Positions 20,200 through 29,938 of a DNA stretch of 33,689 nt are shown here, piece after piece (within the stretch, counting starts at the first letter, position 1; each line of letters starts with the position of its first letter). This stretch comes from a virus: positions 1 through 33,689 of IMG/VR virus record IMGVR_UViG_3300043570_000563; one strand, written 5' to 3'. The notes under the pieces were generated by a model that did not search any database, was not told the DNA's origin, and saw only the letters and a program-made list of their open reading frames with translations. Made by a program: the position numbers and the translations under genes.

Positions 20200-20442
20200 T
20201 TAGAACGTCAAATCATCATCATCAGCGGGAAAACCCTTGCGGGGTTCTACTGGCTTGGGGTCGTTTAGGTACGCCCAACCATCCCAACCGTTTTCCTTTA
20301 AGGGGATCACATCCAGCTTCATCATGTCGCCGTTTTTGGTGTCAATGATGCTGCCAATGCGTTGGTAGCGGTTTTTGGTTTGCCCCTCTTTGTTGGTGTA
20401 CTGGCCCACAATGGCGGTGATTTCTTTTCTGACTTTTGACAT
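20200..20442 (-). CDS. Small single-stranded-DNA-binding-like protein
   Basis: An 80-residue protein with a beta-rich body (KEITAIVGQYTN, RYQRIGSIID, KLDVIPLK) and the acidic end DDDDLTF, which mimics the DDDIPF tip of bacterial SSB proteins. It lies right after an Exo-type nuclease and in the same operon as an Erf annealing protein. The role is probably to coat single strands and recruit partners. It is much shorter than standard SSB (about 170), so OB-fold membership is inferred. Its ATG overlaps the nuclease stop (TAATG). Confidence 0.68.
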   Translation of the reverse strand: MSKVRKEITAIVGQYTNKEGQTKNRYQRIGSIIDTKNGDMMKLDVIPLKENGWDGWAYLNDPKPVEPRKGFPADDDDLTF

Positions 20443-21062
20443 TATTTGCTTTCAATGATTTGGTTAAGTTGTTTAACTTGGGATTCGACCTCGGCTAAAA
20501 ATTTGACAATTTCAGCTTCAATCTCTGCAATAAAGGCATCATCCCGATCCACACGGGTGACAAACAATTGCGCCTTGGCTGGCATTCGGGGGTCGAATAC
20601 GGCGTAATCGCAAAACTTCTTGCCAGTACAAGCCATTTGGAATTGCATTTGGGTGAAGTACTTGCCAGGCACTTTCTTGGTCAGTAGCGCCTCAATCATG
20701 CCCTTGGTTTCGGGGCATTTGATTTCGACCAAGCCATCATCCCCCACCAAGCCATCAGGCGAAGCGCCAGCCATTTCAATTGTGGGATGGGGTACAAACC
20801 CCACTTCCTCAACCATTACGCCCTGTAATGCCTCATAAGCGGCACGGGCAAAGGGTTCTTGATCTGTCCCCCACTGCATGGCGGCATTGGTGTATGACTC
20901 TGCTTTGCTTTGGGTTAGGCGTTCCACCACCAATTGGGCCATGTAGTTTTCACGGCTGGCGCTGTAACCCGTCTTGGTTTTGGCGATTACATCTGCCACC
21001 CTACTGGCGGTGACCTTGCCCAATCGTGCGGCAAACCAATCATCTGTGCGTTGTTCATCCAT
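20442..21062 (-). CDS. Lambda-Exo/YqaJ-type 5'-3' exonuclease
   Basis: A 206-residue protein. The N-terminus (DDWFAARLGKVTASRVADVI) and the catalytic motif Asp103 in GASPDGL, Glu113 and Lys115 in VEIKCP match the YqaJ/lambda exonuclease family of PD-(D/E)XK nucleases. It would resect double-stranded ends to give 3' tails for the Erf partner encoded upstream. The ATG overlaps the upstream stop by 8 bases. The length is close to lambda Exo (226). Confidence 0.9.
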   Translation of the reverse strand: MDEQRTDDWFAARLGKVTASRVADVIAKTKTGYSASRENYMAQLVVERLTQSKAESYTNAAMQWGTDQEPFARAAYEALQGVMVEEVGFVPHPTIEMAGASPDGLVGDDGLVEIKCPETKGMIEALLTKKVPGKYFTQMQFQMACTGKKFCDYAVFDPRMPAKAQLFVTRVDRDDAFIAEIEAEIVKFLAEVESQVKQLNQIIESK

Positions 21063-21219
21063 TGCGAGCCTCCATCATTTCATCAGCTTGTTTGTAAGCC
21101 AATTGTGCGTTTTCCCAAAAATATTCGGGGTCGATTACACCGCCTGCCGACAAGATGGTTTGCAGTGCTTTGGCTGCAAAGTAATCCCGCAGGGTCATTT
21201 TGTCCAACATATCAGGCAT
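21055..21219 (-). CDS. Small helical protein between Erf and exonuclease genes
   Basis: A 54-residue protein containing MTLRDYFAAKALQTIL and YFWENAQLAYKQADEMM, a pattern recalled in many phage early operons. I chose ATG 21219, which has AAGGAG about 8 bases upstream, over a longer start inside the Erf gene whose N-terminal extension would be Pro/Arg-rich shadow sequence. It overlaps the Erf gene by 8 bases and the exonuclease gene by 8. Function unknown. Confidence 0.75.
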   Translation of the reverse strand: MPDMLDKMTLRDYFAAKALQTILSAGGVIDPEYFWENAQLAYKQADEMMEARNG

Positions 21220-21841
21220 TTGATTTCTCCTTTTTAGCTTTGGCGATACGGTCTGCTTTGGCCTTGATGACCTTGGCCTGCCATGCCTGATCACCATCAC
21301 AAGCGGCATAAGCGGCGGCATAAGCGGTTTGCAATTCCTCTTTGGTGGCGCTGGCATCAATGGCGGCAATGTGGTCGGTCATTTGACCCGCATTAACTTT
21401 GCTTTCTACTGGCGCACGGCGGCTGGCGCTGTTGCCATCATCATCCTCTGGCGCAAGGCCAGTGGCGGCTAAAAGGCTATACCTACGGGCATAAGTCAAA
21501 GCCGAGCCATAACCTTGCGGGTCTTGTTTGCTGGCAGGCACATGAAGCACACCGCATTCCAAGGTTTCGCCTGATTCATGGATAAAAATGGTCTCAACCA
21601 TCACACCATCTTTGGATTCATAGGTGCGTTGCATCAAGCCAATCCCGTTGTCGTTTAAAGCGCCTATGACCGCCTCAATGCAATTTGATAGGTCAGCATA
21701 CTTAGACCGAAAATGCGGGTTTGTGCTGGTCTTTAAAGCAGGGCCAAACGCCCGTTGTGCTTTAACAAACGCTGCGGCAATGTGCTTGCCGATGGGCGGT
21801 TCTTTTTGGAATGCACGTTCAATAATGTCTTTGGTTTCCAT
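21212..21841 (-). CDS. erf: Erf-type single-strand annealing protein
   Basis: A 209-residue protein with the ERF-family core: NPHFRSKYADLSNCIEAVI (about residues 41-59), and QDPQGYGSALTYARRYSLL then GLAPEDDDGN. These are the conserved patches of P22 Erf-like recombinases. The C-terminal third is a Lys/Ala-rich helix. It anneals complementary single strands during recombination or genome circularisation. With the exonuclease and the SSB-like protein it makes a full recombination module. Confidence 0.9.
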   Translation of the reverse strand: METKDIIERAFQKEPPIGKHIAAAFVKAQRAFGPALKTSTNPHFRSKYADLSNCIEAVIGALNDNGIGLMQRTYESKDGVMVETIFIHESGETLECGVLHVPASKQDPQGYGSALTYARRYSLLAATGLAPEDDDGNSASRRAPVESKVNAGQMTDHIAAIDASATKEELQTAYAAAYAACDGDQAWQAKVIKAKADRIAKAKKEKSNA

Positions 21842-23302: not shown

Positions 23303-24043
23303 ATGCACTATTACCAGTTCAATATTGGTGACTATCAAAGTCACACAAATCATTTAGACCCTCTTGAGGATTTGGTTTACCGCCGAATGCTTGATTGGTG
23401 TTATTTACACGAAAAACCATTGCCTTTTGAGGCTAACGAAATTGCACGAATTATTCGTATGCGTGACCATGCTTCCATTGTTAGGGATGTTTTGGTTGAG
23501 TTTTTTAGCCGACATGGTGAGGGATGGGTTTGTGATCGAGTGCTTGAAGAAATCCAGCATTACAGGCAAAAAATTGAACAAGCGTCTAGGGCTGGCAAAG
23601 CATCCGCTGAACGTAGGTCTAACGGCGGTTCAACGGGCGTTCAACTAACCAATAACCATAAACCAATAACCAATAACCATATTAAAGAATCTAAAGATTC
23701 TTTGTCGGCAGGATTGCCGACTTGCCCCCATCAGGACATTTTGAATCTTTACAAAAAGCATTTGCCGCAACTTGCCCAGCCAAGGGTATGGGATGGGGTC
23801 AGGCAGACCAACCTACGGCAAAGGTGGTTACAAGCCGCCAAACCGTCATTATTTAGCCCACAGGGGTATGCAAATCAAGCCGATGGACTGGCATGGTGGG
23901 ATTCCTTTTTTGCCTACATTGCTAACGATACCAAGCTGGCGCAGGGGTTTGAAACAAAGGATAGGACATGGCGACCTGATCTTGTGTGGATTGTGAATGC
24001 AACCAATTTCGCCAAAATAATTGATGGGAAATATCAAAAATGA
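23303..24043 (+). CDS. DUF1376/YdaU-like replication protein
   Basis: A 246-residue protein. Residues 1-90 (MHYYQFNIGDYQSHTNHL, LEDLVYRRMLDW, EKPLPF, GWVCDRVLEE) are the DUF1376 pattern found in phage replication-initiator-like proteins. A linker at about residues 105-140 separates it from a Trp-rich C-terminal domain (LRQRWLQA, WWDSFFAYI, TWRPDLVWI). I chose ATG 23303 with a GGGGA site over an upstream start coded by G-rich leader. The linker DNA contains tandem iterons and two hairpins, so the gene probably carries the origin, as lambda O does. The biochemical role is inferred. Confidence 0.8.
   Translation: MHYYQFNIGDYQSHTNHLDPLEDLVYRRMLDWCYLHEKPLPFEANEIARIIRMRDHASIVRDVLVEFFSRHGEGWVCDRVLEEIQHYRQKIEQASRAGKASAERRSNGGSTGVQLTNNHKPITNNHIKESKDSLSAGLPTCPHQDILNLYKKHLPQLAQPRVWDGVRQTNLRQRWLQAAKPSLFSPQGYANQADGLAWWDSFFAYIANDTKLAQGFETKDRTWRPDLVWIVNATNFAKIIDGKYQK
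23647..23721. other. Candidate replication origin: five 7-base iterons and two perfect hairpins
   Basis: Five tandem heptamers of AACCAAT or AACCATA fill 23647-23681. They are followed by AAAGAATC-TAAA-GATTCTTT (23684-23703) and GTCGGCA-GGAT-TGCCGAC (23704-23721), both perfect. The cluster sits in the linker-coding part of the DUF1376 gene, like the iterons inside lambda O. Confidence 0.65.
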
Positions 24044-24270
24044 GTTTTGCAAAACCAAATGTGCCAAAAGAAAATACTTTTGATGATGTGCAGCGACTGA
24101 TGTGCAGTGTGCCTAGCTGTCCTAAACGCTGGTCAGTTCACATGGAAGGCCAGCGCCCAATGTGTAGCGAACACCAGTGGGGCGACAAGAAGCCAGCAAC
24201 CAAGCGAGACATTGCTGTTCTGCTGCCCCACCCGCCTGTCAAGCATTGGCAAGATGACGAGGCGTTTTGA
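24040..24270 (+). CDS. Small zinc-finger-like protein
   Basis: A 76-residue protein. Cys22 and Cys27 (MCSVPSCPKRW) with Cys42 and His45 (MCSEHQW) form a probable zinc ribbon. The rest is polar. The ATG overlaps the preceding TGA (ATGA), so it is coupled to the replication protein. A role in replication or transcription is possible but unsupported. Confidence 0.72.
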   Translation: MSFAKPNVPKENTFDDVQRLMCSVPSCPKRWSVHMEGQRPMCSEHQWGDKKPATKRDIAVLLPHPPVKHWQDDEAF

Positions 24271-24530
24271 TGACCTACGAACACGCCAAAATCATATTGG
24301 ATCGGGTGCGGGATGGCATTGCCTACCCAAATCACACAATTCAAAAAGCATTAGAAATGACGGGTGACATTGATGGACACATCAAAGGAATGGATGAGGG
24401 AATGCGAAGCGAGGGAGTGGATCAAGCGTTACCGCACCAAAGTTTTGGAGGAGGGGAGGTTGGAAGCCTTGGAATGGTGGCAAAAGACCTTATCCAGCAT
24501 AGCAAAAAGGCGTGGACAAGCCGCCGCTGA
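24270..24530 (+). CDS. Small early protein; C-terminal half overlaps next gene
   Basis: An 86-residue protein beginning MTYEHAKIILDRVRDGIAYP with the motif HTIQKALEMTGDID, a pattern I recall from many phages as a product of about 40-50 residues. I chose ATG 24270, which overlaps the previous TGA, over a TTG one codon earlier. The last 45 residues are read from the same bases as the following gene in another frame and look low in information, so they may be a run-on past a lost stop. Confidence 0.65.
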   Translation: MTYEHAKIILDRVRDGIAYPNHTIQKALEMTGDIDGHIKGMDEGMRSEGVDQALPHQSFGGGEVGSLGMVAKDLIQHSKKAWTSRR

Positions 24531-24567
24531 CCGACTACGAAACGACATGAACAGGCTAAAAAAATGA
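24394..24567 (+). CDS. Small helical basic protein
   Basis: A 57-residue protein beginning MRECEAREWIKRYRTKVLEE with RRGQAAADRLRNDMNRL at the end, a pattern common in phage early regions near replication genes. AAAGGA lies just upstream of ATG 24394; an in-frame GTG at 24364 is possible but has no such site. Its stop overlaps the next ATG. Function unknown. Confidence 0.68.
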   Translation: MRECEAREWIKRYRTKVLEEGRLEALEWWQKTLSSIAKRRGQAAADRLRNDMNRLKK

Positions 24568-24830
24568 GATATGCCGCCCGAGTGGATGCAAACCAAGATG
24601 CCATAGTGACCACCTTACGAGCCGCTGGCGCTTATGTTTGGATCATTGGGTTGCCAGTTGACCTTTTGGTTGGCTACAAGAATCACACGTTCTTGGTGGA
24701 AATCAAAAGCACATCTAAAAAGCGTTTAACAGCCCTACAAACCGACTTTTTCCAAAATTGGTGCGGAGGTACGTTGGCAAGGATTGACAGCCCTGATGGG
24801 GCTTTAAGAATGATTGGAGTATTGAAATGA
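24564..24830 (+). CDS. VRR-NUC-like PD-(D/E)XK nuclease
   Basis: An 88-residue protein. Gln11, Asp33 (GLPVDLLVG), Glu46 and Lys48 (FLVEIKS) give the compact D-(E)xK signature of VRR-NUC and Holliday-junction-resolvase-like enzymes, at the usual short domain length. It may cleave branched DNA made by recombination and replication before packaging. It is coupled on both sides by ATGA overlaps. Confidence 0.78.
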   Translation: MRYAARVDANQDAIVTTLRAAGAYVWIIGLPVDLLVGYKNHTFLVEIKSTSKKRLTALQTDFFQNWCGGTLARIDSPDGALRMIGVLK

Positions 24831-25078
24831 TACATAAAGCCTTGATAAAACAACTTGAAGATACCTGCCTTGGGCTTGATCCTGTTGACCCATTGCGCTT
24901 GCTGGTTGACGATGTGATTGCGGCCTTGGCACAAACAGAGCGCACATGGGTGGGGCTGACGAACGATGAGTTAACAGATTTGTTCTACAACACAAATTTA
25001 GGTCAACAGAGTGCTGTTGCTCAAGCCATTGCCTTGCTCAAGCAAAAGAACGGCTTTGCCGAGGAAAAAAACACATGA
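24827..25078 (+). CDS. Small hypothetical protein
   Basis: An 83-residue acidic, helical protein with RTWVGLTNDELTDLFYN in the middle, a phrase seen in hypothetical proteins of many phages. Start and stop both lie in ATGA overlaps. No catalytic or binding motif is visible, and I do not assign a role. Confidence 0.7.
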   Translation: MIHKALIKQLEDTCLGLDPVDPLRLLVDDVIAALAQTERTWVGLTNDELTDLFYNTNLGQQSAVAQAIALLKQKNGFAEEKNT

Positions 25079-25404
25079 AGCCCGAAGAAGCCGCCCAAGC
25101 CATACGAGACAAAGCATCTGCTTATGGCGAAGCCAAAGCCCAACGGGTTTATCTTGATGAATTCCGCAAGTCTAAAAAAGCCCTTTTGATGAAAGATGCC
25201 TTGTCGATGGGGTTTGAAGCCGCAAACGCCCAAGAACGGGAAGCCTATGCCGACCCCGAATATCATCAATTGCTTAAAGGGCTGGCAGAAGCCATCCACC
25301 AAGAGGAAACCCTTAAATGGCAAATTGAGGCGGCAAGGCTTGATATTGAGATTTGGCGCACAAGGGAAGCCACAAACAGGGTGCAAGACAAGGCGCACCA
25401 ATGA
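25075..25404 (+). CDS. Small helical hypothetical protein
   Basis: A 109-residue protein, mostly charged helix, with an N-terminal EEAAQAIRDKASAYGEAKA and the C-terminal LKWQIEAARLDIEIWRT coil, typical of recurrent small phage proteins of unknown role. It overlaps the genes before and after by four bases each. Confidence 0.72.
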   Translation: MKPEEAAQAIRDKASAYGEAKAQRVYLDEFRKSKKALLMKDALSMGFEAANAQEREAYADPEYHQLLKGLAEAIHQEETLKWQIEAARLDIEIWRTREATNRVQDKAHQ

Positions 25405-25586
25405 AATGCCCCGAATGCGGAACATGGACAATTGTCAAAGAAACGAGAATATCCACAGGCAACACACGCAGAAGGCGCTTGGAATGTGCCAATATGCACA
25501 GATTTTCCACATTGGAGACCATAGTTGATCGAAAAACATTCATACGTCAGAAGCAAAAAGCTGTTGAAACTGGTGGCGGGGCTTGA
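25401..25586 (+). CDS. NrdR-like zinc-ribbon protein
   Basis: A 61-residue protein: MKCPECGTWTIVKETR, then RRRRLECANMHRFSTLE. This matches the zinc ribbon of the nucleotide-reductase repressor NrdR (CPxCG, RRRxC, RFxTxE), with Cys3, Cys6, Cys29 and His33 where NrdR has a fourth Cys. The ATP-cone domain of NrdR is absent. It might bind DNA or compete with host NrdR. ATG 25401 overlaps the previous stop (ATGA), which is why I prefer it to a longer start. Confidence 0.72.
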   Translation: MKCPECGTWTIVKETRISTGNTRRRRLECANMHRFSTLETIVDRKTFIRQKQKAVETGGGA

Positions 25587-25860
25587 TTGCCAAGCCTGCG
25601 GGTCAGGGCATATGGTGCAGGCAGCGCACACCAATTGGGGCGGCGGCAAGGGGCGGGGCATCAAAGCTGATGACAACCTAGTGGCGGCGCTGTGCCTCAA
25701 ATGCCATTATGAGATTGACCAAGGCAATACCTTGTCCAAAGAGGAACGACAGGAAAAGTGGCGGCTGGCGCATTTGCGGACTGTGAATGCTTTGGCTGAG
25801 TGTTGGCCTGCTGATGTGCCTGTGCCTACAATGGACAGCACGGGTGCAGTTGCCAATTAA
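25525..25860 (+). CDS. HNH-type nuclease-like protein (DUF1364/YbcO-like)
   Basis: A 111-residue protein. Cys22 and Cys25 (CQACG), His35 (QAAHTNW), the GKGRGIKADDNLVAALC stretch and Cys57, Cys60, His61 (CLKCHYEID) match the zinc-bound DUF1364/YbcO nuclease pattern of lambda nin-region proteins. The start is TTG 25525 with GGAG seven bases ahead, so it overlaps the zinc-ribbon gene by 62 bases. It precedes a strong terminator. A role in recombination or DNA processing is likely. Confidence 0.78.
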   Translation: MIEKHSYVRSKKLLKLVAGLDCQACGSGHMVQAAHTNWGGGKGRGIKADDNLVAALCLKCHYEIDQGNTLSKEERQEKWRLAHLRTVNALAECWPADVPVPTMDSTGAVAN

Positions 25861-28395: not shown

Positions 28396-28507
28396 GAACA
28401 TCGCCAAGGAAATGGAAGCAGGCAAGCCCCAAAAGCAAGCCGTAGCTATTGCATATTCGGTAAAGCGTGAAGCTGAGAAAAAAGCCAAACAAAAGCCTAA
28501 AAAGTGA
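28355..28507 (+). CDS. 50-residue basic protein (phage MPLIKS-type)
   Basis: From ATG 28355, with AAGGAG upstream, it codes for MPLIKSMTPKAMSKNIAKEM, GKPQKQAVAIAYSVKREAEK and a Lys tail. The pattern recurs in small phage proteins of about 40-60 residues (from memory DUF6496-like). I prefer this start over a longer upstream reading frame made of shadow sequence. Its stop overlaps the next GTG (GTGA). Confidence 0.75.
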   Translation: MPLIKSMTPKAMSKNIAKEMEAGKPQKQAVAIAYSVKREAEKKAKQKPKK

Positions 28508-29154
28508 AAATAACCCAAAAAAAGGTTACAGAACTAATTCCTTATGTAAATAACAGCCGCACCCACAGCGATGAGCAAGTGGCACAAATTGCGGCAAGCA
28601 TTAAGGAATTTGGCTGGACTAACCCGATACTGGTGGATGGGCAAAACGGCATTATTGCAGGCCACGGCAGGCTGCTTGCCGCCCGTAAGTTGGGACACAA
28701 AGAAGTGCCCACCATAGAATTAGCCGACCTTACTGAAACCCAAAAGAAAGCCTACATCATTGCCGACAACAGGCTGGCGCTTAACGCTGGCTGGGACAAT
28801 GAGATGCTGACCATAGAGTTGAACGACCTATTAGCCGATGGCTTTGCGCTGGAATTGCTGGGCTTTGACCCAAATGAAATAGATAGCCTGCTAACGCCTG
28901 AGGAAGAAGAAGTAAAAGAAGTTAAGGGCAATTTGTCTGATAAGTTTTTAATTCCCCCGTTTAGCGTCTTAAATGCAAGGGAGGGCTGGTGGCAAGACCG
29001 CAAGCGCTTTTGGCTTAGTTTGGGCATTAAAAGCGAATTAGGTAGGGGCGAAGATGGTGGCGCATCGCCTGGCGGCTCAATAATGGTTGCAGGCTATGAC
29101 AAAAGCGGCAAAAGGCTAGTTGGCTTGCAAAACATAGGTAAATCAAATGGCTAA
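28504..29154 (+). CDS. ParB-like N-terminal half of a ParB/DNA-methyltransferase pair
   Basis: A 216-residue protein starting with GTG at 28504 over the previous stop. Residues 1-110 are a ParB/Srx-like domain: LIPYVNNSRTHSDEQVAQIA, GWTNPILVD, IIAGHGRLLAARKLG, AYIIADNRLAL. The following IPPFSVLNAREGWWQDRKRF is typical of the linker in fused ParB-methyltransferases. The expected enzyme domain is encoded next in another frame, with an 8-base overlap. Arg AGG and Leu TTA/CTA codons are more common here than in the virion genes. Confidence 0.82.
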   Translation: MKITQKKVTELIPYVNNSRTHSDEQVAQIAASIKEFGWTNPILVDGQNGIIAGHGRLLAARKLGHKEVPTIELADLTETQKKAYIIADNRLALNAGWDNEMLTIELNDLLADGFALELLGFDPNEIDSLLTPEEEEVKEVKGNLSDKFLIPPFSVLNAREGWWQDRKRFWLSLGIKSELGRGEDGGASPGGSIMVAGYDKSGKRLVGLQNIGKSNG

Positions 29155-29938
29155 AGGATTGGCAACTTGCCTAGAAACTGGCATTGGCGAAAAATTTGGT
29201 CGCGAAGAAGTAACTGGCACAAGCATATTTGACCCAGTATTGTGTGAATTGGCTTATTCATGGTTTTCTGCGCCAGGCCAGTTAGTGCTAGACCCATTTG
29301 CAGGCGGTAGCGTCAGGGGCATAGTTGCCTCTAAATTGGGCAGGCAATATATTGGCCACGAATTGCGGCAAGAACAAGTTAATGCCAACCGCCAGCAGGC
29401 CAGCGACATTTGCGTAGACGATGCAACCCCGCCTGCTTGGATATGCGGGGACAGCCGCAACATAGATAGTACTTGCAAAGATGTGCAAGCAGACTTTTTG
29501 TTTAGTTGTCCGCCTTATGCTGACCTTGAGGTTTACAGCACAGACCCAAAAGATTTAAGCACCTTGGGCTACCCAGAATTTAAAGGGGCTTACTTTGAAA
29601 TTATCAAAAAAGCCTGCGCTTTGTTAAAGCAAGACCGCTTTGCCTGCTTTATTGTTGGCGAAGTAAGGGACAAAAAAGGCAATTATTACAACTTTGTTGG
29701 CGATACAGTCCAAGCATTTAAAAACGCTGGCCTAAACTATTACAACGAGGCTATTTTGATAACTGCCGTTGGTAGCCTGCCAATAAGGGCTGGTAAGCAA
29801 TTTAGCGCAAGCCGCAAATTAGGCAAAACGCACCAAAATGTATTAGTATTTGTTAAGGGCGATGGAAAAAAAGCCGCCCAAGCCTGCGGCAATGTTGAAG
29901 TCTATTTGCCAGAATCAGAACTTGTAGCGGAGAGCTAA
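29147..29938 (+). CDS. DNA methyltransferase (amino-methyltransferase type)
   Basis: A 263-residue enzyme. AdoMet-binding motif I is LDPFAGGSVRG (residues 48-58), and the catalytic motif IV is SCPPYADLE (from Ser120), which places it with N6-adenine or N4-cytosine methyltransferases. GTSIFDPVLCELAYSWF near the start and KLGKTHQNVLVFVKGD near the end match the C-terminal part of ParB-methyltransferase fusions. It may protect phage DNA from host restriction. Its end overlaps a convergent minus-strand gene by 24 bases. Confidence 0.85.
   Translation: MAKGLATCLETGIGEKFGREEVTGTSIFDPVLCELAYSWFSAPGQLVLDPFAGGSVRGIVASKLGRQYIGHELRQEQVNANRQQASDICVDDATPPAWICGDSRNIDSTCKDVQADFLFSCPPYADLEVYSTDPKDLSTLGYPEFKGAYFEIIKKACALLKQDRFACFIVGEVRDKKGNYYNFVGDTVQAFKNAGLNYYNEAILITAVGSLPIRAGKQFSASRKLGKTHQNVLVFVKGDGKKAAQACGNVEVYLPESELVAES

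Follow-up and report, generated by a model that had tools for sequence, protein, structure and literature searches.

The segment 23621-23721 of the DNA analysed here, an IMG/VR virus record of 33,689 bases (the window), is most likely the theta-type replication origin of the phage, embedded in a lambda-like manner in the part of the initiator gene that codes for the linker between two protein domains. Tandem iterons lie in the linker-coding part of a replication initiator gene, and the DNA of these iterons is conserved beyond what the encoded protein requires. Besides, the stem-loops that follow them are conserved as pairing and not as sequence, which is what is expected of ssi/PAS elements. 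An origin of the lambda ori type had been proposed for this place in a preliminary description, and codon conservation, the persistence of hairpins and the gene context support that proposal. The features involved are listed below.

23303-24043, plus strand: DUF1376 initiator-like gene with N-domain, linker and C-domain (Pfam PF07120, E 5e-20; PHROG; AF2 model).
23621-23645, plus strand: 11-nt direct repeats AACGGCGGTTC AACGGGCGTTC AAC (TRF; DNA match of 23620-23676 to Moraxella phages).
23647-23681, plus strand: five 7-nt iterons AACCAAT/AACCATA (sequence, TRF, synonymous shuffles, recurrence in DUF1376 genes of unrelated phages).
23684-23703, no strand assigned: SL1, an 8-4-8 hairpin, AAAGAATC-TAAA-GATTCTTT (folding; compensatory changes in relatives; loop bias of first hairpins).
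23704-23721, no strand assigned: SL2, a 7-4-7 hairpin, GTCGGCA-GGAT-TGCCGAC (folding; compensatory changes in relatives).
23726-24040, plus strand: C-terminal domain, common to initiators with other N-domains (alignment A1).

The DUF1376 gene starts at ATG 23303 or, alternatively, at TTG 23276, and the former is favoured since homologues begin with MHYYQF. Its PHROG matches are to primosomal protein and replication initiation (O-like) families. Structure searches with the protein returned only weak winged-helix-like matches that give no family, and a sequence search of solved structures gave no meaningful match to it. Predicted structures were drawn on for 13 proteins, from the window and from the loci compared. 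The modelled N-domain is helical with a beta-hairpin (winged-helix-like) and is followed by a long helix; residues 107-135 of the ATG-start protein are disordered (AlphaFold, pLDDT<50) and sit between this helical N-domain and the helical C-domain. The disordered residues are coded by 23621-23707, a stretch containing the 11-nt repeats, the iterons and SL1, with SL2 next to it where the C-domain side begins; the earlier placement of the repeats in a region coding for a flexible linker is borne out by this model. The window genes directly 3' of the DUF1376 gene (24040-25404) include no recognised helicase or loader; in relatives, the downstream genes are annotated as DnaB-type replicative helicase, IstB-like ATPase/helicase loader, protein P or primase/helicase. 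On the minus strand, an Erf-like annealing protein and a RecE-like exonuclease (20442-21841) adjoin the replication gene. Elsewhere in the window, a ParB-like protein is followed by an N6/N4 DNA methyltransferase-like gene (28504-29938), and 25525-25860 shows a weak DUF968/YbcO match together with a PHROG match to HNH endonuclease.

The iterons run in the order AACCAAT AACCATA AACCAAT AACCAAT AACCATA and are separated by two bases (TT) from SL1, which SL2 adjoins without any gap; the five tandem 7-base units and both inverted repeats, 8-4-8 and 7-4-7, are thus exactly as first described. This is the highest-scoring tandem array of the window (TRF 54), and three copies of AACCA at 7-nt spacing occur once in the window and are absent from all 300 Markov sequences. 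Synonymous codons were permuted inside each gene, with protein and codon usage held constant: the 7-nt periodicity of the window gene stands above such shuffles of the same protein (p=0.0005), and periodicity and hairpins do so in most of 29 representative relatives, the compared genes being kin by descent and swapping modules, so that the per-gene p-values, like the Fisher p-value given below, overstate independence. Directly 5' of the iterons lie the 11-nt repeats AACGNNCGTTC, which were absent from the preliminary description, are also present in the linkers of L173 and L176, match Moraxella phages at the DNA level and probably constitute the first part of the origin. The array and SL1 are visibly A+T-rich, and there is no separate A+T tract beside the iterons. 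GC skew has no turning point at 23.6 kb, which neither helps nor refutes an origin there, and AT skew at the site shifts with gene direction.

It had been anticipated that an origin would be refuted if relatives kept the linker protein and lost the DNA repeats, and the result went the opposite way, the DNA being kept more strictly. When nine GenBank phages were aligned to the window, 79 of the 92 codons for identical residues in the repeat segment were themselves identical, where the rates for the same residues in the N-domain predict 31.5. The window is 91% identical to Moraxella phages over 57 nt (23620-23676) and a Methylophilaceae phage shows 96% DNA identity over 49 nt of this segment, whereas the N-domain DNA of these relatives is only about 50% identical to that of the window. 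The conserved iterons looked for in related phages were encountered as AACCANN-type arrays in DUF1376 linkers of Moraxella, Vibrio, Acinetobacter, Pseudomonas, Thalassomonas, Chlorobi and Methylophilaceae phages. More generally, AACCANN or ACCCAAN arrays are frequent in DUF1376 linkers from GenBank phages and bacterial genomes, and 17 of 51 loci contained three copies of ACC[CA] at 7-nt spacing, in 16 cases within a DUF1376 linker. These DUF1376 genes were picked by protein or HMM match alone; the first scan of viral contigs partly used a linker peptide pattern, and the C-domain scans, N-domain scans and HMM survey were independent of the linker of the window.

In the Bordetella locus L181 the AACCAG cores are kept though the peptide shifts to NQNQNQ. 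Many GC-rich or distant DUF1376 genes carry other repeats instead of an AACCANN/ACCCAAN array, either 6-nt (AACCAG, CACCTT, GACAGT) or 11-nt (ATGCGAACGCA). Dyads of the form ATGCGAACGCAT were observed in DUF1376 loci with ACCCA/ACACA iterons or NANA-type linkers (L179:1361-1430, L185, L192 and L164), upstream of the array or replacing it, with an 11-nt period in L185 and L192 (p=0.002). In L178 (1376-1405) an annotated CRISPR spacer match falls within the DUF1376 gene, just 5' of the iteron array. The DUF1376 phages encountered in this analysis carry no annotated origin, and a search for literature on origins within DUF1376 genes found none.

Folded as DNA, 23682-23722 reaches about -13 kcal/mol (z about -7), equally on both strands; the two-hairpin total of the window stands above synonymous shuffles with p=0.0015, and the single best stem alone with p=0.07. 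An intrinsic terminator at the hairpins was considered and rejected, as there is no T-tract and the site is absent from the terminator-like matches; the segment has no match in Rfam. In 156 loci with the common C-domain (61 distinct regions), hairpins are found directly 3' of the array, but with changed sequence. SL1 takes the forms AAAGAATC/GATTCTTT, AGATGC/GCATCT, AAAGAAGG/CCTTCTTT, AGAAGC/GCTTCT and AAAGATAC/GTATCTTT, and in more distant relatives AAGAGAC/GTCTCTT and CCGTAGC/GCTACGG, and the peptide that it encodes varies along with the stem (ESKDS, DAYAS, EGKPS, EAKAS, DTKVS). Among 18 distinct SL1 sequences three pairs change on both sides, with 9 double-change cells and a covariation of 0.216 against 0.080+-0.021. 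The same is true of three pairs in 27 distinct SL2 sequences (28 double-change cells; 0.390 against 0.107+-0.021), an alignment outside which the shorter SL2 of the window's own group lies (18 vs 21 nt). Both covariation values are well above shuffles and slid structures alike. At the six covarying pairs, standard-to-standard changes from the common pair are all double, and no G-U types occur in the 18 SL1 and 27 SL2 sequences. DUF1376 phages in GenBank from Vibrio, Acinetobacter and Moraxella carry the iterons, mostly with no such hairpins close 3' of the array; the DUF1376 iteron class can therefore do without the hairpin module. Its absence from several gammaproteobacterial phages could be a matter of the host or of the C-domain.

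Three N-domain families other than DUF1376, which share the C-domain in some members, were each searched separately. A strong array was present in 78 of 80 members of the first family, mostly of GAGACA-type 6-mers; the second has AGATAC 6-mers or CAGAA 5-mers, and the third TGATTCC 7/8-mers mixed with 11-nt repeats. In the N_L153 family (L435, L447, L439) the iteron period passes from 6 to 5 nt (CAGAA), and the CAGA core is kept with an altered peptide. Short repeats and then a hairpin are a plan that recurs in many phages with start proteins of different families. Of 68 distinct hairpins that come first 3' of the arrays, 45 have a loop of 4 nt, and 26 of these 45 loops are of the form C-TNNC-G, compared with 8 of 377 elsewhere in the loci (Fisher 1.5e-22, a significance that relatedness inflates, but the stems differ). 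C-TNNC-G loops close 16 distinct stems and are present in all four initiator groups; hairpins 5' of the arrays have none (0/9), and the SL1 loop of the window, TAAA, lies outside the pattern. The opposite strand reads c-GNNA-g. This is reportedly an unusually stable DNA tetraloop, according to thermodynamic selection by Nakano, Bevilacqua and colleagues, and for this reason a single-stranded-DNA hairpin is favoured.

Trees of 67 genes indicate that array and hairpins follow different domains. The iteron type (AACCA, ACmCA or AAACA) changes three times on the N-domain tree vs nine times on the C-domain tree, whereas the SL1 type changes 14 times on the former and nine on the latter, and the SL2 type 17 and eight times, respectively. 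The comparison shows that the joints between swapped modules lie between the array and the hairpins. An iteron type that tracks the N-domain is consistent with recognition, although it is not proof of it, because physical linkage alone would yield the same pattern.

Related to this, the site might serve chiefly as a joint for recombination, where annealing proteins of the phage exchange N- and C-domains, as the clear reassortment of these domains and the Erf-like annealing protein and exonuclease encoded by the phage would allow. This is very unlikely, given that reassortment needs neither compensated hairpins nor a loop style common to unrelated sequences, and joints are expected at an origin anyway. 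Still less probable is that the repeats merely reflect a low-complexity peptide linker (TNNHKPI heptads) that expanded by slippage, and that they have no function as DNA. The codon identity is far above expectation, the periodicity exceeds synonymous shuffles in most genes, the DNA core is kept while the peptide alters (L181; the ACACA/ACCCA forms) and the hairpins covary, all of which outweighs the facts that repeats are tolerated in linkers, that any 7-nt array necessarily codes for a heptad repeat and that the linker peptide is alike in many relatives.

As for the hairpins, it is rather improbable that they work in the mRNA, by translation pausing or transcription attenuation, with an incidental array. 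Two stable hairpins between the parts coding for two domains would suit such a role, and an RNA hairpin is equally compatible with compensatory changes; nevertheless, the lack of G-U types at the covarying pairs, of a T-tract and of terminator-like or Rfam matches is against it, and the family-specific iterons upstream would be left unexplained. It is also unlikely, if somewhat less so, that the origin is real and its perfect hairpins are a mutational product without any role, arising by template-switch correction of quasi-palindromes. One-step correction fits covarying pairs that lack G-U or one-sided intermediates, but it does not account for a hairpin position that is constantly just 3' of the array, nor for a C-TNNC-G bias found in four initiator groups, absent 5' of the arrays and rare in the background.

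An origin within the initiator gene, with an added hairpin cassette, is proposed as the simplest account of these data. Judging from gene context and iteron type, DUF1376 is the putative DNA-binding domain of the initiator. The DUF1376 N-domain would bind the 11-nt and 7-nt repeats of its own gene, the A+T-rich array would open, the exposed single-stranded DNA would fold into SL1/SL2, and the C-domain, together with a phage or host helicase loader, DnaB and primase, would start the replisome at the origin. Protein binding, melting, origin activity and the hairpin role are all predictions from the sequence. For the hairpins, a strand-specific loading or priming site of the ssi kind is tentatively put forward; the next choice would be that the C-domain or a host factor recognises them. 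The ssiA/ssiB elements of RSF1010 and primosome assembly sites are single-strand initiation hairpins of plasmids; as in these, iterons here lie near stem-loops that may be able to act on single-stranded DNA, but the hairpins described here are located inside the initiator coding sequence and vary in sequence.

In lambda and Stx phages, ori lies inside gene O with the iterons in mid-gene, and each lambda iteron is an inverted repeat (PMC7466680). The window shares with them the iterons in the middle of an initiator gene and the plan of N-domain, linker and C-domain, and its relatives also share a helicase loader or helicase downstream. It differs from lambda in that its iterons are 7-nt and non-palindromic (neither AACCAAT nor AACCATA is self-complementary), have 11-nt repeats upstream and are accompanied by two separate covarying hairpins, and the N-domain is DUF1376 rather than that of O. 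According to the excerpt cited (PMC6316719), oriL of SPP1 lies inside gene 38, whose initiator binds direct repeats of its own gene, and SPP1 has a helicase loader and a DnaB-type helicase; direct repeats in an initiator gene are common to both systems, whereas initiator and repeats are different and that excerpt describes no covarying hairpin module (PMC6316719). YdaU of the Escherichia coli Rac prophage is a DUF1376 protein too. The ydaU linker (L082:8540-8660) contains AGATAC/AGATAA/AGATCT repeats, a TCCCCC-CC-GGGGGA palindrome and TGTTCAAAC/GTTTGAACA arms; unlike the window it has no AACCA array, and its best repeat has p=0.18. An active origin, oriJ, has been reported for Rac (PMC3945230); its map position there was not found in the literature searched, and the ydaU linker is a candidate for its seat.

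DUF1376 is still annotated as a domain of unknown function. If the origin reading is true, the origin could be read from the gene alone, as a repeat array in the linker, and DUF1376 would be an initiator domain that recognises a specific DNA sequence and whose binding site is predicted. The hairpin would be a new element of phage origins, and the tandem repeats in the linkers of unrelated phage initiators (TNNQEPI, ETETET, DTDTDT, NPDS) would be explained. It is conceivable, with the same reserve as for the hairpin role, that the C-TNNC-G cassette represents a strand-specific element for loading or priming that has not been described before, that the interchangeable iteron arrays beside it match interchangeable DNA-binding domains, and that the "low-complexity" linkers of many phage initiators are modular origins.
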